The notes under the pieces: model-generated
What the model was told of the DNA's origin: nothing
The model's input: only the letters and a program-made list of their open reading frames with translations
Databases searched by the model: none
Made by a program: the position numbers and the translations under genes
Source of the DNA: an uncultured Oscillospiraceae bacterium
Lineage (GTDB): Bacteria; Bacillota; Clostridia; Oscillospirales; Oscillospiraceae
Direction: 5' to 3'
Assembly: GCA_947599925.1 (NCBI GenBank)
Contig: CANQFT010000002.1
Span: 124,001 to 188,000 of the forward strand
DNA length: 64,000 bases
Shown: one piece after another, positions 35,967 to 53,196 of the stretch
How positions within the stretch are numbered: position 1 is the stretch's first letter
Layout: every line of letters begins with the position of its first letter

Positions 35967-37487
35967 TCAGGCCTTTTCCTGGCGGGAGAGTTTGACGGCG
36001 GCGGCGATGACCCCAAAGAGGAACCAGAAGAGGAACATATTTCGGGGGTAGAACCAGGTGTACTCCACCAGGCCGATGGCCAGGATGCCCACAAAGGCGC
36101 CAAGGGCGGCGGCGAGGATCCGGCGGAGCTCCTTGTCGGTCCGGGCAAAGGCCCGCAGGCCCTCTTTGATCTGGCTCAGGAGCAGGCCCAAAAAGGCCAA
36201 CAGGCCAAAGAAGCCCACCTCGCCCCACATCTGGAGGTAGTTGTTGTGGGTGTGGATGGGGTAGTTGCCGTCGTAGAGGGTGGGGTAGTGGCGAAAGACC
36301 CGGCCCATCACGTCGCTGCCCAGGCCCACGCCGGTGACGCCGTAGTCTTTCAGCAGACGCCCGGTGTCCTCGTAAATGGCGATGCGGTAGCGGGCGGAGG
36401 AGTCCTGCATATTGCCGATGGTGAGGATGCGGTTCAAGATGCTCTCCGGCAGGAAGGGGACGGCGCACAGCCCCAGCACCACCATGGCGGGCAGGAAGCG
36501 CCAGTCCATCAGGCACAGGAACACCACCGCCGCCAGCGCCAGGCCCAGCCAGCTGGAGCGGGAGTAGGTCATGCCCATGGCGGCCAGGCAGAGGGCCAGG
36601 GTCCCAAGGCCCAACAAACGGCCCCGCCAGCCCTTGGCGTTGAGGGTCAGAGCGCCCACCAGGGGCGTGAGCATCACCAGCACCTCGGCGAAGTTGTTGG
36701 GGTTGTCGAAGAAGGCGTAGATCCGGCCGGGCATCCCCTCGTTCAAGGTCAAGTCCTGCTGGGAGGCCACCACCTCCACCCCCACGTAGCCTTGGTAACA
36801 GCCGTAGAGCGCGGCCACGGCCACCCCCACAGCGGCGCAGACCAGCACGGTGTTCAGCTGGCGGCGGGTGTCGATGGCGCTGACCGCCACCAGCACCACG
36901 AAGAAGCCGGTCAGGTGGAAGAGGTAGAACCGCAGGGACATGGAGGGGCTCAGAGAGGTGATCAGGCCCAGGGTGATAAAGAGCGCGTAGAGGGCGAACC
37001 ACGGGCCCACGCGGGCCGTCTCCATGGCCTTCTGGCGGTTGGCGCAGCCCACGGCGTACACCGCCATCAAAGCCGCGGCCCCCAGGAAGGCGTACAGGTT
37101 GTCCCACCGCTCGTGGGGCGCCACCAGCATCACCAGCGCGAAGAGGCCCAGCAGCAGCCAGCTGGCCCGGCCCAGGGCCGTGGCCCAGCGGAAGCACACG
37201 CTGCCGTCCCAGAAGCGGCGGCCCAGCCGATAGAGCCCCTTGGCCACCGCCACGGGGAGGTCGAACAGCCAGGCCACGGCCCGGCCAAAGACGCTGTCGC
37301 TCCAGCCGCGCCAGAGGCTGCCGTCCCGGACGGCCAGGGCGCGCAGACGGCTGTTTTGCCCCGCCGCCGCCAGGGTCAGACGGCGGCGATGGCACCAGCC
37401 GCCCAGGGCGCTCCGGCCCCAGAGGTCCTGAAAGCCGCGCCAGAGGCTGAAAAGCCACCGGCACAGAACGCTGTTTGCCGCCGTCAT
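35967..37487 (-). CDS. O-antigen ligase / polymerase family membrane protein
   Basis: Multi-TM; GVTGVGLGSDVMGRVFRHYPTLYDGNYPIHTHNNYLQMWGEVGFFGLLAF. Confidence 0.82.
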   Translation of the reverse strand: MTAANSVLCRWLFSLWRGFQDLWGRSALGGWCHRRRLTLAAAGQNSRLRALAVRDGSLWRGWSDSVFGRAVAWLFDLPVAVAKGLYRLGRRFWDGSVCFRWATALGRASWLLLGLFALVMLVAPHERWDNLYAFLGAAALMAVYAVGCANRQKAMETARVGPWFALYALFITLGLITSLSPSMSLRFYLFHLTGFFVVLVAVSAIDTRRQLNTVLVCAAVGVAVAALYGCYQGYVGVEVVASQQDLTLNEGMPGRIYAFFDNPNNFAEVLVMLTPLVGALTLNAKGWRGRLLGLGTLALCLAAMGMTYSRSSWLGLALAAVVFLCLMDWRFLPAMVVLGLCAVPFLPESILNRILTIGNMQDSSARYRIAIYEDTGRLLKDYGVTGVGLGSDVMGRVFRHYPTLYDGNYPIHTHNNYLQMWGEVGFFGLLAFLGLLLSQIKEGLRAFARTDKELRRILAAALGAFVGILAIGLVEYTWFYPRNMFLFWFLFGVIAAAVKLSRQEKA

Positions 37488-38581
37488 CTCGCCACCGCCT
37501 TTTCGTAGACTTGGTAGGTGTCCTGGGCCAGCTTGTGGATCTCGAACCGCTCCCGGATGTTTTTCCGGGCGTTCTCCCGGCACCGCGCCAGCAGTTCCGG
37601 CTCCTCCAGGAAACGCCTCAGGCACCCGGCCATGGACGCCGGGTCGTCGTACACCGCCAGCAGACCGCCCTGCTCCGGGCCCTGCAGGATGTCCCGGTTG
37701 CCGCCCATGTCGGTGATCACGCAGGGCAGGCCCGCGGCCTGGGCCTCGATGATGAGAAAGCTGAGGGCCTCGTGCTGGGAGGAGTTGACGTAGAGATCGG
37801 CGCCCTTGTAGAGATTTTTGACGTCCTTGCGGAAACCGATGAACTTCACCTGCTCGTCGGTGAGGCCCAGCTCCGCCGCCAGGGTACGGGTGGGCTCCAG
37901 CAGTTCCCCGTCCCCGGCCAGGACCATGGTGAAGGGGGTCGCGGTCATCTGGCTGAGTTGGGCCAGGGCCCGCATGAGGTAGGCGTGGCCCTTGTCAGGG
38001 GCGAAGCGGGAGGCGCAGAGCATGACGAAGCGGCTCTCCGGGATGCCCAGCTCGGCGCGGAGGGTGGAGCCCTCCCCCGCCCAGGCGTCCAGGTCCACGC
38101 CGTTGAACACCACCTGGATGCGCTCCCCGCTCCAGCCGTTTTTCATCAGCTGCTCCCGGCCCCGGTTGCACACGGCGATCATCTGGTCCTGCCGCCGGTC
38201 CAGGAGACGGTTGGTGAGGCGGGTGGGGAGGTCGTTGGGGAGGATGAAGTGGTTGGTGTAGACCACACGGATCTTCTTGTTGTACCGCTTGGCCAGCAGG
38301 GCGATGTAGTGCTCCCGGAGATAGTGGCAGTGGATCAGGTCGATGTCCCACTCCCGGCAGAACTCCGCCAGGGCCTTGGCCGCCTTGCGGTCAAAGCGGC
38401 TTTTCATGTCGATCTGGCGGGTCGGCACCCCCAGGGCCTCCAACCGCTCCACCAAAAGGCCGCTTTCGTTGTAGGCGAAGTAGGGCTCCACCTTCGTGCC
38501 GCCCAGATACTTCACCAGGGTCTCCACATACCGCTCCGTTCCCGCCTTTCCAGCGTGGTTGAGCAGATAAAGGACTTTCAC
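37484..38581 (-). CDS. Glycosyltransferase family 4 protein
   Basis: MKVLYLLNHAGKAGTERYVETLVKYL...FKGADLYVNSSQHEALSFLIIEAQAAGLPCV-type motif. Confidence 0.88.
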   Translation of the reverse strand: MKVLYLLNHAGKAGTERYVETLVKYLGGTKVEPYFAYNESGLLVERLEALGVPTRQIDMKSRFDRKAAKALAEFCREWDIDLIHCHYLREHYIALLAKRYNKKIRVVYTNHFILPNDLPTRLTNRLLDRRQDQMIAVCNRGREQLMKNGWSGERIQVVFNGVDLDAWAGEGSTLRAELGIPESRFVMLCASRFAPDKGHAYLMRALAQLSQMTATPFTMVLAGDGELLEPTRTLAAELGLTDEQVKFIGFRKDVKNLYKGADLYVNSSQHEALSFLIIEAQAAGLPCVITDMGGNRDILQGPEQGGLLAVYDDPASMAGCLRRFLEEPELLARCRENARKNIRERFEIHKLAQDTYQVYEKAVAR

Positions 38582-38611
38582 GCTAAGACCTCCCTAACTG
38601 TCTGCCGCCTG

Positions 38612-39175
38612 TCACAGCCCCAGGCCCTGGTTCAGCATCCGGCCCACCTGCTGGGCGAACTGCTCCTGGTCCAAGTCCAGGTCGCCCCGGAGCCAGACCA
38701 GGTAAGCCCGCATGATGCCGGCGGCGTAGACCTCGCTGCTCATGCGGATGTGGGTCTCGTTGGTGACGCCCCGGCGCCGCAGGGCGTCCTCCACCTCGGC
38801 GCGCAGAATGGCCCGCAGACGCTCCATGAAATAGATGTAGCCCGTGCCCTTGACCAGACGGCGGTAGAGGGACATCTTTTCGGCCATGATGCTGTTCAGC
38901 GCCCGGAAAAACCGGGCCATGTCCACTTCCTCCCCGTGGGCCTCCTCCCGCTTCAGCTCCTCCTGGAAGCGCTGGATGGCGCTCTCGTAGAACTCCTCCA
39001 GGATCTCCTCCACCGAGCGGTAGTGGAGGTAGAAGGTCTTGCGGTCCACGTCGGCCCGCTGGGCAAGTTCTGTGACGGAGATCTTCTGGAACTCCTTCTC
39101 CCCCAAAAGCTCGAACAGGGCACGGGTCAAGGCTGCTTTGGTACGGGTCACGCGTCTGTCCTGCGCCATTGCCAT
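38612..39175 (-). CDS. TetR family regulator
   Basis: TRTKAALTRALFELLGEKEFQKISVTELAQRADVDRKTFYLHYRS. Confidence 0.88.
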   Translation of the reverse strand: MAMAQDRRVTRTKAALTRALFELLGEKEFQKISVTELAQRADVDRKTFYLHYRSVEEILEEFYESAIQRFQEELKREEAHGEEVDMARFFRALNSIMAEKMSLYRRLVKGTGYIYFMERLRAILRAEVEDALRRRGVTNETHIRMSSEVYAAGIMRAYLVWLRGDLDLDQEQFAQQVGRMLNQGLGL

Positions 39176-39355
39176 CCCTCTTTTTCTATGGGCGACCCCA
39201 TTTTTGTAACGTATATCATTATAACGGACAAAATGGAAAAAATCAACACTTGCCCGCCGGTTTGTCTTGTTATTTTTGGCAATAAAATTGGGGTTGCATT
39301 TTTCCTCCAAATAAGTTACAATTTAGTAACAACAAATTTCAAAGGAGGAACACCC

Positions 39356-40300
39356 GTGAAGAAGCGTTTGCTGTGTCTGGCCCTGGCTCTGGCGGCGGTC
39401 TGGCCCCTGGGCGCTTGGTCGGCGGAGCCCGATCCGGCTGAGCCCGCCGCCGCGGAGGAAGCCGGGCAGATCCCGGCGGAGGTCCCCCCAGAGGCCGTGG
39501 CCCCGGAGGAGGCCCCCGCGGAAGAGGTCCCCGCGGAGGAAGCTCCCGCGGAGGAGGCGCCGGCTGTGGCCAACCAGTTTGAGATCTTTGTGAACGGGCA
39601 GGCGGTGCCTGGCGCCCACTCCCTGCTGGAAGCGGGCGTCACCTATGTGGCCATCGAGCCTGTGACCCGGGCCCTGTTCCCGGAGATGGAGAGCGCCTGG
39701 GCCGGCGGCTACGCCGACGTGGAGGTCACCGGGCCGGGCTTTGAGATGTCCTACAACTTCCAGCGGCCCTATCTCATCTGCAACGGCCGGTATCTCTACT
39801 ACTCAAAGGGCGTGCGGCTCCACCCCCAGGACAACACCTTCCTGGTGCCCGTCCGGGTGCTGGCCAAGGCCCTGGGCGCCCAGGTGGATTGGGACGGGGC
39901 GGGGGTGTACCTCACCTCCGGCACGCCCATCGCGCCGGGCGACACGTTCTATGACGCCGGCGAGCTGGACCTGCTGGCCCGCGTGGTCCAGCACGAGAGC
40001 GGCAGCCAGCCGCTGGAGGGCAAGATCGCCGTGGCCCAGGTGATCCTGAACCGGGTCAAGGCGGGCTCCAGAGCGGGCTTTGCCGACAGCGTCAGCGGCG
40101 TGATCTACCAGAAGAACCAGTTCAACGGCGCCACCAACGCCACTCCCAAGGCGGAGGCCATTCTGGCCGCCAAGCTGGCCCTGGACGGCGCGGACGTGGT
40201 GCCTGGGGCGTACTGGTTCAACGGCGTGGGCAAGTCCTTCTGGGCCAGCCGGAACAAGAGCCTGTTGTACGTCATCGGCAGCCACGCCTTCTACGGCTGA
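39356..40300 (+). CDS. Secreted SleB-like cell wall hydrolase with stalk domain
   Basis: Signal peptide, (P/E)AEE linker, LLARVVQHESGSQPLEGKIAVAQVILNRVKAG. Confidence 0.82.
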   Translation: MKKRLLCLALALAAVWPLGAWSAEPDPAEPAAAEEAGQIPAEVPPEAVAPEEAPAEEVPAEEAPAEEAPAVANQFEIFVNGQAVPGAHSLLEAGVTYVAIEPVTRALFPEMESAWAGGYADVEVTGPGFEMSYNFQRPYLICNGRYLYYSKGVRLHPQDNTFLVPVRVLAKALGAQVDWDGAGVYLTSGTPIAPGDTFYDAGELDLLARVVQHESGSQPLEGKIAVAQVILNRVKAGSRAGFADSVSGVIYQKNQFNGATNATPKAEAILAAKLALDGADVVPGAYWFNGVGKSFWASRNKSLLYVIGSHAFYG

Positions 40301-40643: not shown

Positions 40644-42809
40644 GTGTATCTTGCACATCGCGCGGAGGATGGCCGGGAACAGAGCATCCTGGAACATGGC
40701 CGGAACGTAGCCAAACTCTGCGCCGGCTTCGCCGCGCCCTTTGGAGCGGAAAAACTGGCGGAGCTGGCGGGGCTGCTTCACGACATTGGGAAGTATTCCG
40801 GCGCCTTCCAGCGGCGCATCCGCGGGGAGAACATCCAGGTGGACCACGCCACGGCGGGGGCTTGGGAGTGCTTTCAACTGCGACAGGCCGCGGCGGCTTT
40901 TTGCATAGCGGGACACCACGGGCGGTTACCGGAGTTGGGAACCTCTGATGACGGGCCGGAACTGCCGTCTTTGTGCGGGCGGATGAACCGGGCCAAGCAG
41001 GGACGGTTGGAGCCCTATGGCGCGTGGCAAGGGGAAATCACGCCGCCGGAAGCGCCGCCTCGGATGCCGTCGGACCCACTGGATGACTTCTTTTTCATAC
41101 GAATGCTCTACTCCTGCCTGGTGGATGCCGATCATCTGGACACGGAGTGGTTCATGCAGGGAAAGGTGGAACGGGGCGGTGGACTGGACATGGCCGCTTT
41201 GGACCAATGTTTTCAGCAGAAGATACAAAAGTGGTTTCCGCCCAAAGGAGCGCTGAATGAGCGCCGCTGTACTATCCTGGAACGATGTACCGACCAGGGA
41301 GAGCGGCAACCTCCTGGGCTGTTTACATTGACAGTTCCCACCGGCGGCGGAAAAACAACGGCATCTCTGGCTTTTGCCCTGCGCCATGCCAAGACCCACG
41401 GGTTAAAAAGGGTCGTCTATGTGATCCCCTACACCAGCATCATCGAGCAGACGGCAGACACTTTCCGCAAGGTCCTGGGAGATGACGCGGTGCTGGAGCA
41501 TCATTCCAACGTGGACTTCGGCGACGATGAGAGCGGCTCGCCCGACCCGGAAAAGACGCGCAAGAAGCTGGCCGCCGAGAACTGGGACCTGCCGGTGGTG
41601 GTGACCACCGCCGTGCAGTTCTTCGAGTCCCTGTTCGCGAACAAGCCGTCCCGGTGCCGGAAGCTCCACAATTTGGCGGACAGCGTCATCATCTTCGACG
41701 AGGCCCAGACCATCCCCCTGCCCTACCTGCTGCCCTGCGTCCGGGCCATCGCGGAGCTCACCGTGAACTACGGCGCGTCCTGCGTCCTCTGCACCGCCAC
41801 CCAGCCCGCCCTGGGGCCCATGTTCACCGACATTGCGCCGGAGCTGGCTCTCCGGGAGATCGCCCCGGAAATTCCCGCCCAGGTTTTCCAGCGGGTGCGC
41901 TACGAGCACCTGGGCCAGCTGTCCGACGAGGCCCTGGCCCAACGGCTGGGCGGCCATGAACAAGCCCTGTGCATCGTATCCACCCGCAAACAGGCCCAGG
42001 CGGTCTACGACTTGCTGGATCCCGCGGACAGCTTCCACCTGTCCACCCTCATGACGCCGGAGCACCGGCGGGAAGTCCTGGCGGAGATCCGGCGGAGGCT
42101 GGACCCCAGACACCCCCGCCCCTGCCGAGTGGTGTCCACCAGTCTCATCGAGGCCGGAGTGGATGTGGACTTCCCCGCCGTCTACCGGGCTGAGGCGGGG
42201 CTGGACTCCATCGTCCAGGCCGCCGGACGGTGCAACCGAGAGGGAAAGCGTCCCCTGGACGAGAGCCGCGTCTACATCTTCCAGCCCGACAGCAAATACA
42301 TCGCCACCCTGCCCTATTCTATCCTGCGGCCCATAGATGTTATGCACTCCGTCATCCGGGACTGCCCCGCCCTGGACGCGCCGGAGGCCATCGAGCGCTA
42401 TTTCACCGGTCTACATCTGTTTACCGGAGAGGGACTCGACAGCAAACAGATCGTCTCCTTGTTCGAGGCAGGGATGCAGGATCCGTACCATCCCTCTTTC
42501 CCCTTTGCCGAGGCAGCTCAGGCGTTCCATCTCATCGATCGGAACACCCGCGCCGTCCTCATTCCCCGCACGGAGGAGGCCAGGGCGCTGGCCGCCCGCC
42601 TGCGGCGCGGCGAGCGCAGCCGGGCCCTGCTCCGCAAGGCCGGGCAGTTCTCGGTGAACGTGTACGAGGACCACTTCGATGCCCTCAATGCAAAAGGCGC
42701 CCTGGATATTCTGGAGCCGGACCTGGCTGTGTTGACCGACCCGTCTCTGTACAGCGAAACCACCGGCCTTGAACTGTTGGCCGACGACGGGGTGGGAATC
42801 TTCCTGTAA
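40644..42809 (+). CDS. cas3: CRISPR-associated helicase/nuclease Cas3 (type I-C)
   Basis: HD domain (LAGLLHDIGKYSGAF...HATAG), TVPTGGGKTTASLAFALRHA, DEAQ; GTG start after aggaggggg. Confidence 0.95.
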   Translation: MYLAHRAEDGREQSILEHGRNVAKLCAGFAAPFGAEKLAELAGLLHDIGKYSGAFQRRIRGENIQVDHATAGAWECFQLRQAAAAFCIAGHHGRLPELGTSDDGPELPSLCGRMNRAKQGRLEPYGAWQGEITPPEAPPRMPSDPLDDFFFIRMLYSCLVDADHLDTEWFMQGKVERGGGLDMAALDQCFQQKIQKWFPPKGALNERRCTILERCTDQGERQPPGLFTLTVPTGGGKTTASLAFALRHAKTHGLKRVVYVIPYTSIIEQTADTFRKVLGDDAVLEHHSNVDFGDDESGSPDPEKTRKKLAAENWDLPVVVTTAVQFFESLFANKPSRCRKLHNLADSVIIFDEAQTIPLPYLLPCVRAIAELTVNYGASCVLCTATQPALGPMFTDIAPELALREIAPEIPAQVFQRVRYEHLGQLSDEALAQRLGGHEQALCIVSTRKQAQAVYDLLDPADSFHLSTLMTPEHRREVLAEIRRRLDPRHPRPCRVVSTSLIEAGVDVDFPAVYRAEAGLDSIVQAAGRCNREGKRPLDESRVYIFQPDSKYIATLPYSILRPIDVMHSVIRDCPALDAPEAIERYFTGLHLFTGEGLDSKQIVSLFEAGMQDPYHPSFPFAEAAQAFHLIDRNTRAVLIPRTEEARALAARLRRGERSRALLRKAGQFSVNVYEDHFDALNAKGALDILEPDLAVLTDPSLYSETTGLELLADDGVGIFL

Positions 42810-42817
42810 ACAGCCGT

Positions 42818-42843
42818 GGGGCAGATGCCCCAGCATCTGCCCC
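42818..42843. terminator. Hairpin downstream of cas3 / end of crRNA-like RNA
   Basis: ggggcagatgc-ccca-gcatctgcccc, perfect 11-bp arms. Confidence 0.7.
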
Positions 42844-42874
42844 GCGACCAGTTCGCCATACTGTCAATCTCTCA

Positions 42875-42904
42875 ATTTCAACCCACATTCCCAACGGGAA
42901 CGAC
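42875..42904 (-). repeat. Solitary degenerate CRISPR repeat
   Basis: Same 11-nt 3' end TGGGTTGAAAT and 7-bp stem as array repeat GTCGCGCCCCGTGCGGGCGCGTGGGTTGAAAT. Confidence 0.85.
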
Positions 42905-42916
42905 CGTAACGATGTT

Positions 42917-42945
42917 ACTATATCTGTTTCTCATCAAAAAATCAA
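42917..42945 (-). promoter_or_regulatory. Promoter of crRNA-like RNA
   Basis: Minus strand TTGATT (42945-42940)-17-TATAGT (42922-42917). Confidence 0.65.
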
Positions 42946-42965: not shown

Positions 42966-42994
42966 TTGACAAGCAGCGAAGAATATGTTATACT
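42966..42994 (+). promoter_or_regulatory. Promoter of cas5c-8c-7c-4-1-2 operon
   Basis: TTGACA-17-TATACT. Confidence 0.85.
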
Positions 42995-43031
42995 TTCAAT
43001 GTCTCATAAATTTGAAAGAGGTGAGCGAATT

Positions 43032-43685
43032 GTGAGCCAAGGGATCCAAGTGGAGGTGTGGGGGGACTATGCGCTTATCACGCGTCCGGAGCTCAAAGTG
43101 GAGCGGGTCAGCTACGATGTGATGACCCCCTCCGCCGCACGGGGGCTGATCGAGGCAATCTACTGGCACCCCGGCCTGCGGTGGCACATCGACCGCATCC
43201 ACGTGATGAACCCCATCGCCTTCACCAACATCCGGCGCAACGAGGTCAAAGACAAGGTTTTGGCCTCCAACGTGCGCTCTGTGATGACCGGCGGGGACAG
43301 GCCTTTGGCCATCTACACCGGCGAGAGCATCCAACAGCGGGCCTCCATGGTGCTGACCGATGTGCGGTATGTGATCGACGCGCACTTCACCATGACCGAC
43401 AAGGCCGCGCCCACGGACAACGAGGGCAAGTTCATCGACATCGCCCGGCGGCGGCTGGCGAGGGGACAGTGTTATCACCAGCCCTGCTTCGGCTGCCGGG
43501 AGTTCCCCGCCCACTTCCGGGCATGGCCCGGCGGGCCGGTGCCCACCATTCCGGAGACCCGCTCCCTGGGGCTGATGCTCTACGACATGGACTACTCCGA
43601 CCCCCGGAACATCCAGCCCATGTTCTTCATGGCGGAATTGACAAACGGCGTGCTGGAGGTGGCGGGAAAGGAGGCGCTGCGATGA
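43032..43685 (+). CDS. cas5c: Cas5c (Cas5d), pre-crRNA endonuclease of type I-C
   Basis: GIQVEVWGDYALITRPELKVERVSYDVMTPSAARGLIEAIYWHPG; GTG start after gaggtgagcg. Confidence 0.95.
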   Translation: MSQGIQVEVWGDYALITRPELKVERVSYDVMTPSAARGLIEAIYWHPGLRWHIDRIHVMNPIAFTNIRRNEVKDKVLASNVRSVMTGGDRPLAIYTGESIQQRASMVLTDVRYVIDAHFTMTDKAAPTDNEGKFIDIARRRLARGQCYHQPCFGCREFPAHFRAWPGGPVPTIPETRSLGLMLYDMDYSDPRNIQPMFFMAELTNGVLEVAGKEALR

Positions 43686-48505: not shown

Positions 48506-50110
48506 GTCGCGCCCCGTGCGGGCGCGTGGGTTGAAATCAGATCCACCACGGTCAAATAGTAGCCCGTGTAACGTCGCGCCCCGTGCGGGCGCGTGGGTTG
48601 AAATTGCCCCGGCGGACTCCAAAAGCGGGTCGGCTCCGTCGCGCCCCGTGCGGGCGCGTGGGTTGAAATCGCGAAGCTGATGCGTCCGGCCTCCTCTGCC
48701 TCGGTCGCGCCCCGTGCGGGCGCGTGGGTTGAAATGAGGTCATAGCCCTCGATGTCCAGGTCGGCGATGGTCGCGCCCCGTGCGGGCGCGTGGGTTGAAA
48801 TCGTACAGAGGAGAGGCGCGGAGCGGCTCCCAGTGTCGCGCCCCGTGCGGGCGCGTGGGTTGAAATTCGATGGCGGGCACCTCAAAATGAAGGAGGAGGT
48901 CGCGCCCCGTGCGGGCGCGTGGGTTGAAATCTTGGTCGGCCAGGGTGGTGATGCTCCGGCTCTGTCGCGCCCCGTGCGGGCGCGTGGGTTGAAATTGGCG
49001 CATGACCTCAGCAAAGTAATACTGGAACTGCAGTCGCGCCCCGTGCGGGCGCGTGGGTTGAAATAAACCACTTTGAAAAATTAGAACAAACCGTTCCGTC
49101 GCGCCCCGTGCGGGCGCGTGGGTTGAAATATATAGGCGCTCGGTCAGCTCCTCCGGTGTGACGCGTCGCGCCCCGTGCGGGCGCGTGGGTTGAAATTTTG
49201 TTGCTCTCTGTTAGAGGGGCGCCGAAACAGGTCGCGCCCCGTGCGGGCGCGTGGGTTGAAATTACCCGTGGGGGGTGTGGGTGACGGCTTATGCAGTCGC
49301 GCCCCGTGCGGGCGCGTGGGTTGAAATTGGCAGGGTAGCGGCCCGGACTTTGGGTTTGCCGTCGCGCCCCGTGCGGGCGCGTGGGTTGAAATATAGGAAT
49401 GCACAAAAAAAATGTTTACCTGGGAGTCGCGCCCCGTGCGGGCGCGTGGGTTGAAATGAACGTATCACCGCTGATAGCGTCCATGCACAACGTCGCGCCC
49501 CGTGCGGGCGCGTGGGTTGAAATAGCAGGATGTCCTCTCGAGCAAGCACCACGGCAGTCGCGCCCCGTGCGGGCGCGTGGGTTGAAATTGGATTTGCTAG
49601 AATAGCATTGTCGGGAGGGCAAGGTCGCGCCCCGTGCGGGCGCGTGGGTTGAAATAAGGTTTTTGTTCACCTTGCACAAAAACAGCTTGGTCGCGCCCCG
49701 TGCGGGCGCGTGGGTTGAAATGAGCCCGGCGACCACCACCGCTTGCCGGGCAAGGTCGCGCCCCGTGCGGGCGCGTGGGTTGAAATAGTTAGAAAGGAGG
49801 GATATATATGGACTGGCAAACGTCGCGCCCCGTGCGGGCGCGTGGGTTGAAATCTACATCCCCGTTGGGAGCCGCGGGGATTTCACCGGTCGCGCCCCGT
49901 GCGGGCGCGTGGGTTGAAATGATGATTTACACCGCCGTGGAAAACGCTATGACTATGTCGCGCCCCGTGCGGGCGCGTGGGTTGAAATATGAGTTCCTGG
50001 GGCACACCGATGATCTCCACCTCGTCGCGCCCCGTGCGGGCGCGTGGGTTGAAATGACCTGGGGGCGGAGTGCCAGGACAAGACCTTCGTCGCGCCCCGT
50101 GCGGGCGCGG
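48506..50110 (+). CRISPR. CRISPR array 1, 25 repeats (last truncated), 24 spacers of about 32-37 nt
   Basis: Repeat GTCGCGCCCCGTGCGGGCGCGTGGGTTGAAAT (32 nt); starts 48506, 48573, 48638, 48704, 48770 ... 50024, 50089(truncated). Confidence 0.98.
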
Positions 50111-51147
50111 GGATCAGTTACACCCTCAACGCGGACGGGACCACTCTTGTCCCCAGTTTCGTGGACGGGGACGGGGTGAAGCTGGACGATGACGGGATGC
50201 CGGAGAACGCTATGTTCTACCTGGACATCCGCAACGGGAAGGCGTACTTCCGCGGGAATATTTACGCGGAGAACGGATACTTTGCCGGTGTAGTCAAGGC
50301 CACGGACTTCCTGACGCAAGGCGGCGAGAGTATGCTGACCGGCGGGAAGTTCAACTCGAAGTACCTGGACCTGGGCAAGATCCAGATTGACGGCGAGACC
50401 GGGAACATCACCATGACCGGGGACATCAACATGGGCGGCGCCAGCCGGATCGACCTGGGGAGCATCGTGATAGACGGGGCAAATCGGACCATTCGGTTCA
50501 CCGGCAAGGCCGGGTCGATCCTCTGGGGCGAGAGCGCGCCGGTGAAATACCAGTTTGGTGCGTCCGCGGCGGGGCCGTGGCACGACACGATGGAGGCGGG
50601 GGACAAGTACCGGCGGGACAGTCTGGACGGCGGGGCAAGCTGGGGCGAGCCCTATCAGTTCCGAGGGACGGACGGGAGGAACGGAAGTCCAGGGCGGGAC
50701 GGGACGGTGGACTATTCGGAGGTCAACCGGATCCTGAAGGAGACCTACGGCATCACCACCACCTACATCACCGAGGGGACCATCGGCTCACCGGTCATCC
50801 GGGGCGCGGAGATCTACGGGTGCAACATCTACGCCGGGGATGGACAGGGCATGGTCGCCAGCATGATGGGCGACGGGTTCTACATCCACGACGCGGACAT
50901 CGACACGCCAAAGATCGCGCTGGAAAGCATGAGCAACGGCAATATCCTCCGCCTGGTGTTGGGGGCCGGACCGAGAGGAGACAGTTCAATGTTGGGGCGA
51001 GGTCAAATCAATAAAACAAAATCGGGAATGGCAGTTGTATATATTGACGACAATGCAAAACCAAGCGGGTTCGAGTTTCACGACGACGGGAAAATAGTAG
51101 TGCGCGGTGATATTGTCAACCTGACGGTCCCAGCGGTATTTGGATAG
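50111..51147 (+). pseudogene. C-terminal part of a phage tail/minor structural protein
   Basis: ISYTLNADGTTLVPSFVDGDGVKLDDDGMPENAMFYLDIRNGKAYFRGNIYAENGYFAGVV...; reading frame enters from the truncated repeat with no native start. Confidence 0.7.
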
Positions 51148-51148
51148 T

Positions 51149-51889
51149 TTACTGTGACAACTTATTCATTATAGTGTCCTTAAAAGCGACAACGGTAGCT
51201 GGGACCATCACTCCACCTGTGAGCCCGTAGGCACCATAATACTCTACTTGACCTAGGCTACTCCCATCCTGCAAATCGTAAAATCCATATGCAAAGAAGT
51301 CCTCTCCGGCATATTTAGCGTCAATCGTGTCAGCGGCGTGCGCGCCAAAAAGCCGCTCGACCCGCTCCTGGCTCATATCTGAAATCAAAGAGAGCAGTCC
51401 GGCCTCATCTATACAGATTGCTTCAAAATTGTGTTCATTATCAAAGAAGCTCACTTCCCACATTCCCTTAAACTTCTGATACGCCGCTTCGTCCTGGGCA
51501 TCCCAATCCCAGTAGACGGAGTTGTAGGGGTTAGAGGAACGGTCCACCCTGTCCCCCATCGAAGGCTGCTTCGCGCCGGGGGCAGGGGCAGGAGGCGCCT
51601 TGGGGTCGGTGACGGTGGCCAGGTTGGTCTCGGCGTCGTAGCCCACGGTGAGGCCGTAGGCTTCGGCCAGGGCGCGGAGGGGAGCGTAGGTGGTGCCGTT
51701 ATAGGCAAAAACGGGGACCTCGGCCCCGGTGACGTCCCTGGGAACGAAGGTCTCGCCGTTGACCTGGATGTTGATGGGGTAGACGTCGATGGTCATGTGG
51801 TCGGAGATGGCGAGGGCGGAGATGGCCGCGCCAACGAGCAGGGCGCCCGCGAGGAGACCGGAGAGGAAAGTAGGAAAGCGGCGTTTCAT
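51149..51889 (-). CDS. Secreted stalk-domain (copper amine oxidase N-like) protein, probable prophage cargo
   Basis: Signal peptide; VFAYNGTTYAPLRALAEAYGLTVGYDAETNLATVTD. Confidence 0.75.
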   Translation of the reverse strand: MKRRFPTFLSGLLAGALLVGAAISALAISDHMTIDVYPINIQVNGETFVPRDVTGAEVPVFAYNGTTYAPLRALAEAYGLTVGYDAETNLATVTDPKAPPAPAPGAKQPSMGDRVDRSSNPYNSVYWDWDAQDEAAYQKFKGMWEVSFFDNEHNFEAICIDEAGLLSLISDMSQERVERLFGAHAADTIDAKYAGEDFFAYGFYDLQDGSSLGQVEYYGAYGLTGGVMVPATVVAFKDTIMNKLSQ

Positions 51890-52033
51890 GGGAATTACCT
51901 CCTTGAATATGGGATGGATACATTTTACCACTTTTCGGGAGAAAAGACAATGCCCGGAAATTGCGCGATATGTCCGGGTGAGATGGCACGCAAGGAAGGG
52001 GGAATAGAAGCGGGTTCAATATTTGGCATTTGC

Positions 52034-52732
52034 CCAGACCGAGCAGGGCGCCGCCCAGCAGACGGGGCCGCCACAGGAGGCCAGGTACTCCCAGGACGAC
52101 AAGGAGGACAGGGAGACCCAGCGGAAGCTTGCCGGGAAAGGGTTGCAGAAAGCTGGGCGGCGTGGTATGATAAAGACCACACGGCAGGAATGGCGGCAGA
52201 TCCAAAGCGCACAGATGCAGAAGTATGCCGGGATGGAGGAGAGCGACATCCCGGAGCAGGACTACGTGTTCGCCCATGATCTTTTCTACGTTATCCGCAA
52301 CTATGGACTGGATACATTTACCGTAATGAAGCGCCTGGATCCTGCCACCAATCAGCAGGACGTCAACCAAATCATTAGGGGGAAAAAATATGAAGATCAC
52401 GGACAATTCGGCGTTGACGATTGGGAAATTGATGGGTCGGATCCAAGCGACGGACGCAGACGCCGTAGTCGTGGGCTTGACACTGGAGACGGAGGAGAAC
52501 GCCCAGGAGTTCTTCACATGGTACAAGAGTCTGACGGAGGACCCGACGCCCCAGGCGTGCTTCGAGAAAGCAGTAGAGATTTGGGAGGCCAACGGCCCGT
52601 GGCCGGAGGAGACGAACGGGGAAGCCTGACCGAGCGGGAGACCGGCGGCGGAGAGGAGTTTTCGCGGGAGCCCGATGAAGCCTACGTCCGGGAGCTGCGG
52701 GTCGCGCCCTACGCGGGCGCGTGGGTTGAAAT
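52034..52732 (+). repeat. 699-bp module copy 1, ends in variant CRISPR repeat
   Basis: Roughly 90% identical by eye and the same length as 53301-53999. Confidence 0.9.
52390..52629 (+). CDS. 79-aa protein of unknown function (module copy 1)
   Basis: MKITDNSALTIGKLMGRIQATDADAVVVGLTLETEENAQEFFTWYKSL...; agggggaaaaaat RBS region; paralog at 53657. Confidence 0.7.
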   Translation: MKITDNSALTIGKLMGRIQATDADAVVVGLTLETEENAQEFFTWYKSLTEDPTPQACFEKAVEIWEANGPWPEETNGEA

Positions 52733-53188
52733 TCCGGGGGTGCGGGCGTGTAGACCTTCGCCACCGTCGCGCCCCGTGCGGGCGCGTGGGTTGAAATTTG
52801 TTGCTCTCCAGCACCTTGTAGACGGCTATGGTCGCGCCCCGTGCGGGCGCGTGGGTTGAAATAGATGATGGTACAATTAAGTGCTATTCCAACCCGTCGC
52901 GCCCCGTGCGGGCGCGGGGGTTGAAATCGGAGCCCTGCACCCCCGCCACCGCGCTGTCCAGTCGCGCCCCGTGCGGGCGCGTGGGTTGAAATAGCCCGCT
53001 GTGTACTTACATCAGACTGTCCCCAAGTCGCGCCCCGTGCGGGCGCGTGGGTTGAAATGATTTGTAGGCTATGACTACCGCAAACTCACGTGTCGCGCCC
53101 CGTGCGGGCGCGTGGGTTGAAATCCTCATATCGTTCGCGGACTCCGGTATACCGGAGTCGCGCCCCGTGCGGGCGCGTGGGTTGAAAT
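52701..53188 (+). CRISPR. CRISPR array 2, 8 repeats, 7 spacers
   Basis: Starts 52701 (variant loop TAC), 52766, 52831, 52896 (1 mismatch), 52961, 53027, 53092, 53157. Confidence 0.97.
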
Positions 53189-53196
53189 TGGCCGAT

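Follow-up and report, generated by a model that had tools for sequence, protein, structure and literature searches.

The window (the whole stretch of DNA analysed, 64,000 nucleotides from an uncultured Oscillospiraceae bacterium) carries a complete type I-C CRISPR-Cas system on its plus strand, in the order cas3, cas5c, cas8c, cas7, cas4, cas1, cas2 and array. The system is recognised as type I-C by the presence of cas3, cas5c, cas8c, cas7c, cas4, cas1c and cas2 together with an array repeat that forms a hairpin and ends in GAAAT. Type I-C is a compact subtype in which crRNAs are processed by Cas5c and not by Cas6. The cas3 gene (40644..42809, plus strand) is apparently its own transcription unit, while cas5c (43032..43685, plus strand; GTG start, TIGR01876) is the first gene of the cas5c operon. 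The main CRISPR array (48506..50112, plus strand) has spacers of 32-37 nt and is the source of competing crRNAs. Its repeat, GTCGCGCCCCGTGCGGGCGCGTGGGTTGAAAT, is present in 30 exact copies from 48506 to 53157. A further array, short and built from an identical repeat, lies on the plus strand like the main array, about 2.7 kb after it (52700-53190), and one 98-nt interval in this array suggests a degenerate repeat within. A large ORF before cas3 (37475-40300) has SleB-like cell wall hydrolase and copper amine oxidase N-terminal-like domains.

The gap between cas3 and cas5c contains, on the minus strand, a degenerate solitary repeat (psi-R, GTCGTTCCCGTTGGGAATGTGGGTTGAAAT, 42875..42904) made up of GT, a stem, a 3-nt loop and an 11-nt handle. 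Like the repeats of CreR genes, psi-R is degenerate and lies outside the array but within the cas locus. The handle (TGGGTTGAAAT, 42885-42875) agrees exactly with the array repeat, whereas the predicted stem (CGTTCCC/GGGAATG, 7 pairs including one G-U) differs from the array-repeat stem in sequence. An earlier note on this DNA had described the minus-strand repeat at 42904-42875 in the same way (exact handle, 7-bp stem of different bases, 3-nt loop), and the description holds. Of the 32 copies of the handle in the 1.86-Mb genome, 31 lie on the plus strand, spaced as in arrays, and the sole minus-strand copy is that of psi-R. Upstream of psi-R, where the earlier note had placed it, is a predicted promoter (TTGATT-17-TATAGT, 42917..42945, minus strand) with a start expected near 42910, and similar TATAAT-like boxes are found just upstream of psi-R in many relatives.

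The handle is followed by a 26-nt guide, or pseudo-spacer (TGAGAGATTGACAGTATGGCGAACTG, 42849..42874, minus strand), and then by a 3' hairpin (GTCGCGGGGCAGATGC-TGGG-GCATCTGCCCCACGGC, 42813..42848, minus strand); the TGTTTA that comes after the hairpin overlaps the cas3 stop codon. The earlier note gave 31 nt as the distance to an 11-bp hairpin (42843-42818), which is correct, but those 11 bp form the core of a longer hairpin (42848-42813) with one mismatch and the guide is thus about 26 nt. The longer hairpin is probably the terminator and the 3' end of the RNA; the T-tract after it is weak in the window and longer in many relatives. No second repeat was found after the guide in the window or in relatives. 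The GTCGC at the start of the 3' hairpin was considered as a second repeat and rejected, as this position in relatives is occupied by a terminator-like hairpin of varied sequence. The likely gene structure is a single repeat plus a terminator-like hairpin. A search of Rfam returned only one miRNA match, at chance level, and no copies of the handle with the window guide were found in phage or viral contigs or in metagenomes.

The same gap holds two diverging promoters, both recognised as consensus predictions, one toward psi-R and one toward cas5c. The predicted promoter of the cas5c-cas8c-cas7-cas4-cas1-cas2 operon (TTGACA-17-TATACT, 42966..42994, plus strand) has 11 of 12 consensus letters and a TG before the second hexamer, and its predicted start is about 30 nt upstream of cas5c. 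Positions 1-17 of the guide (TGAGAGATTGACAGTAT, 42874-42858) match a target in this promoter (TGAGACATTGAAAGTAT, 42990..43006, minus strand) at 15 of 17 positions, with mismatches solely at positions 6 and 12. A partial match to a cas promoter of this kind is a feature of CreR RNAs. The target extends from about -11 to +5, over the -10 element and the predicted start, is about 130 nt from the guide, and adjoins a PAM (5'-TTA, 43007..43009, minus strand) that in most relatives is TTC or TTT. The runner-up site for the guide within the 64 kb matches at 12 of 17 positions, and a scan of the 1.86-Mb genome that ignored positions 6 and 12 and tolerated two mismatches returned only the guide and its target. 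No guide match was found near the cas3 start in the window, and cas3 should thus escape repression. Class 1 complexes flip out each sixth base of the guide, so that pairing is confined to 5-nt stretches (PMC11127173), and the I-C system of Xanthomonas albilineans prefers the PAM TTC (PMC10810201).

Recurrence was assessed in 80 cas5c loci from public genomes, many of which are metagenome assemblies. To be called, an element had to show the handle, TT in the PAM and 13 or more matches among 15 guide positions. By these rules, 33 of the 80 other I-C loci, in addition to the window, have an element whose target is in the cas promoter of the same locus, and an element with handle, hairpin and guide was found in none of 89 shuffled regions. 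The element is on the strand opposite cas5c in all 33 loci and in the window. Cultured carriers of the element include Pseudoflavonifractor capillosus ATCC 29799 (L085) and Desulfosporosinus (L096 and L102). One further locus (L079) was left out for its poor handle (7 of 11 letters). Additional loci, for which no PAM was required, gave 18 positives among 79 (about 15 distinct, as three pairs share one site) and none among 79 shuffles; the PAM in these 18 is TTC in 15 and TTT in 3. Altogether there are 55 elements in 29 guide families, the families being counted because the elements are related. Candidates in L041, L050 and L073, and the second units of L032 and L102, were rejected as false or non-guide repeats because they lack a target. 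Upstream of cas5c, L032 and L102 have two or three consecutive repeat-like units, and only one guide in each matches the cas promoter.

The guide-target match has a regular period. In 28 loci chosen without regard to PAM, positions 1-5 match in 27-28 loci, positions 7-11 in 26-28 and positions 13-17 in 24-27, while positions 6, 12 and 18 match in 7, 4 and 3; these three positions and positions 19-30 are at or near background. The PAMs of the 28 loci are TTC (17), TTT (10) and TTA (1). When sites were selected without masking, the same site was obtained in 34 of 34 loci, and with one phase masked, the remaining positions match perfectly in 17 of 34 loci if that phase is 6, against 0-1 loci for any other phase; therefore, masking did not create the periodicity. 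Guides match their own locus at 13-15 of 15 positions and other loci mostly at 8-11, near relatives excepted. Comparison of L033 with L034 shows coordinated changes in guide and target at positions 1 and 5, and position 12 differs. Perfect stems of at least 4 bp are present in 25 of 34 elements, compared with 16% at random positions. The stem sequence varies among elements with pairing kept, although this variety alone is weak evidence since pairing was the criterion by which stems were scored. In nearly all relatives a long hairpin begins 20-29 nt past the handle, and in many it has a T-rich tail.

Presence of the element goes with a long cas3-cas5c gap. Of the 46 loci in which this gap is 100 bp or more, 33 have the element, and of the 37 with a shorter gap none does; the other 13 long-gap loci have no detectable element, L036, L047 and L098 being near-misses. 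Three small-gap loci (L071, L075 and L103, the last from Megasphaera NM10) have an element with its target upstream of cas3. In these loci cas3 heads the operon, and the element of L103 is on the cas3 strand. The gap dependence and the elements before cas3 in these three loci suggest that the element follows the operon promoter. The earlier note named absence from close relatives with intact cas operons as evidence against its reading. Such absence is seen in part: L026-L028, with a cas5c that is 94% identical, have no element, but their cas3-cas5c gap is 31-94 bp, too short, or nearly so, for a separate cas5c promoter.

Relative to the predicted start, the 32 targets examined fall into two ranges, -70..-39 and -11..+51, and 31 of them are within -70..+35 where 17.4 are expected. 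Overlap with the core promoter elements was considered as a rule and rejected, as none of the 32 overlaps -38..-12 (8.4 expected). Instead, targets sit just upstream of the -35 element or downstream from about -11. The predicted cas leaders of L033, L034, L037, L038, L039 and L045 are 150-400 nt long with no clear small ORF. Eight plasmid-borne I-C loci, including those of Desulfovibrio vulgaris pDV and Zymomonas, were searched for the element and none was found.

Four other explanations have to be weighed against a regulatory gene. The repeat is solitary and diverged and is absent from some relatives, as would be expected of an array remnant, that is, a leftover degenerate CRISPR repeat without function. 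However, a remnant would not track the presence of a separate cas5c promoter, nor would it keep the handle, hairpin, promoter-matching guide, PAM and 5+1 periodicity in 29 guide families. The match of guide to target refutes it as a general explanation, and it is extremely unlikely; the claim of the earlier note that psi-R is not an array remnant is borne out by this match and by the recurrence. It is also very unlikely that the resemblance simply stems from a promoter fragment that was duplicated or taken up as a spacer, a self-targeting accident with no regulatory role. Such an event is a plausible origin for the guide, and the two sites are about 130 nt apart, but a recent copy would match through positions 6 and 12 and past 17, all of which are at or near background, whereas positions 1-5, 7-11 and 13-17 are conserved and guide and target have changed together between L033 and L034.

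CreA antitoxins of CreTA addiction modules have a similar anatomy and act via Cascade (PMC9458426), and the guide could in principle repress a toxin and not the cas genes. About 30 nt separate the predicted start from cas5c in the window, too little to accommodate a toxin, and a search of ORFs in eight relatives with longer leaders gave no convincing small toxin ORF, making a CreA-type antitoxin highly improbable. The solitary I-C repeat RacrIC1, encoded in a Bifidobacterium prophage, inhibits I-C systems (PMC10651486), which provides a precedent for an RNA anti-CRISPR-like decoy occupying Cas proteins without a DNA target. Since psi-R is found within a cas locus and not on a phage, and its cognate DNA target is conserved, a decoy of this type is exceedingly improbable.

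The reading that we consider very probable is that psi-R belongs to a single-repeat, CreR-type crRNA-like gene that would allow the I-C Cascade to repress its own cas5c operon. This explanation rests on the anatomy, the guide-target match, the PAM, the periodicity, the recurrence and the coupling to a separate cas5c promoter. A CreR-type reading had been made in the earlier note from the repeat alone; the target match, found in the present analysis, supports it, as do the side on which the PAM lies, the 5+1 periodicity and the 29 guide families. Several features are against it: the PAM in the window is TTA, not TTC, the guide has 26 nt before the hairpin compared with 32-37 nt for the array spacers, the T-tract of the terminator is weak in the window, and 13 long-gap loci and the eight plasmid-borne loci gave no element. 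Assembly of Cascade on the RNA is not certain because the guide is short and there is no second repeat.

For the regulatory circuit, we infer transcription, processing by Cas5c, loading into Cascade, repression, and sensing of crRNA and anti-CRISPRs. The minus-strand promoter would give an RNA of about 100 nt comprising the repeat hairpin, the handle, the 26-nt guide and the terminator-like hairpin at the cas3 stop codon. The presumed processing nuclease, Cas5c, would cleave the RNA at the base of the repeat hairpin, after which the processed form would be loaded into the I-C Cascade. Three 5-nt segments (1-5, 7-11 and 13-17) would then guide Cascade to the cas5c-cas8c-cas7-cas4-cas1-cas2 promoter and block it. 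Pairing would end at position 17, which is probably too short for cleavage by Cas3. In type I-B, an 11-bp seed match suffices for repression by CreA, and with spacers no longer than 24 nt there is repression but no interference (PMC10989794); by analogy, a 17-nt match may repress without cleavage in type I-C. When free Cascade is plentiful, Cas production would decrease, and when Cascade is occupied by crRNAs or disabled by anti-CRISPRs, the operon would be released. Competition by crRNAs and release by anti-CRISPRs are described for CreR in reviews (PMC12737573, PMC13131331).

A broader proposal, for which we see the chances as evenly balanced, concerns a so far undescribed class of CreR with a single repeat and a terminator at its end, which type I-C systems of Oscillospirales, and of some other Bacillota, would carry. 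Its guide would be held to exactly three Cascade segments (17 nt, flipped bases free), and it would repress the Cascade and adaptation operon, spare cas3 and be unable to trigger cleavage. CreR-type RNAs are already known as a kind, to which the I-C case, as predicted from sequence, would add. If true, a CreR in type I-C would mean that RNA-guided autorepression applies more broadly, as a rule, among type I systems. With their 29 guide families, the 55 elements would be a natural record of how the I-C Cascade reads DNA, in three 5-nt segments with the sixth bases free and TTC or TTT adjoining, and this record suggests where binding stops short of Cas3 cleavage. Additionally, sensing of crRNA supply and of anti-CRISPRs by a I-C system becomes testable.

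Shmakov et al. 2023 (NAR) reportedly described standalone repeats beside cas genes, mostly of type I, with spacers partly matching cas promoters, and psi-R resembles these crRNA-like elements and mini-arrays in being a standalone cas-side repeat with a partial promoter match. RacrIC1 and other RNA anti-CRISPRs (PMC10651486) are likewise solitary repeat units that would engage I-C Cas proteins, but they are encoded by phages away from cas genes and have no cognate DNA target, whereas psi-R lies between cas3 and cas5c. CreA RNAs have degenerate repeats, one or mostly two, and guide Cascade to a promoter by a short match (PMC8501985, PMC9458426). The CreA of CreTA represses an adjacent toxin, while the target here is the cas5c-operon promoter. 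CreR (Liu et al. 2023 Cell Host Microbe) is closest. In the accessible literature, which covers CreR through reviews, no description of a CreR-like arrangement in type I-C was found, and the reviews name I-B, I-E and V-A as shown cases (PMC12737573, PMC13131331). One review terms CreR a mini-CRISPR RNA, a two-repeat architecture that is not necessarily defining and that psi-R, with its one repeat, does not have; the missing second repeat is not treated as excluding CreR, because one-repeat CreA elements are known (PMC9458426). As far as CreR is described in these sources, the likeness lies in a crRNA-like RNA that has a degenerate repeat, is encoded within the cas locus and partly matches a cas promoter, and CreR autorepresses as is proposed here. 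The differences from CreR as described there are that the system is type I-C, with Cas5c replacing Cas6, and that the gene has one repeat plus a terminator-like hairpin and a match made up of three 5-nt segments.
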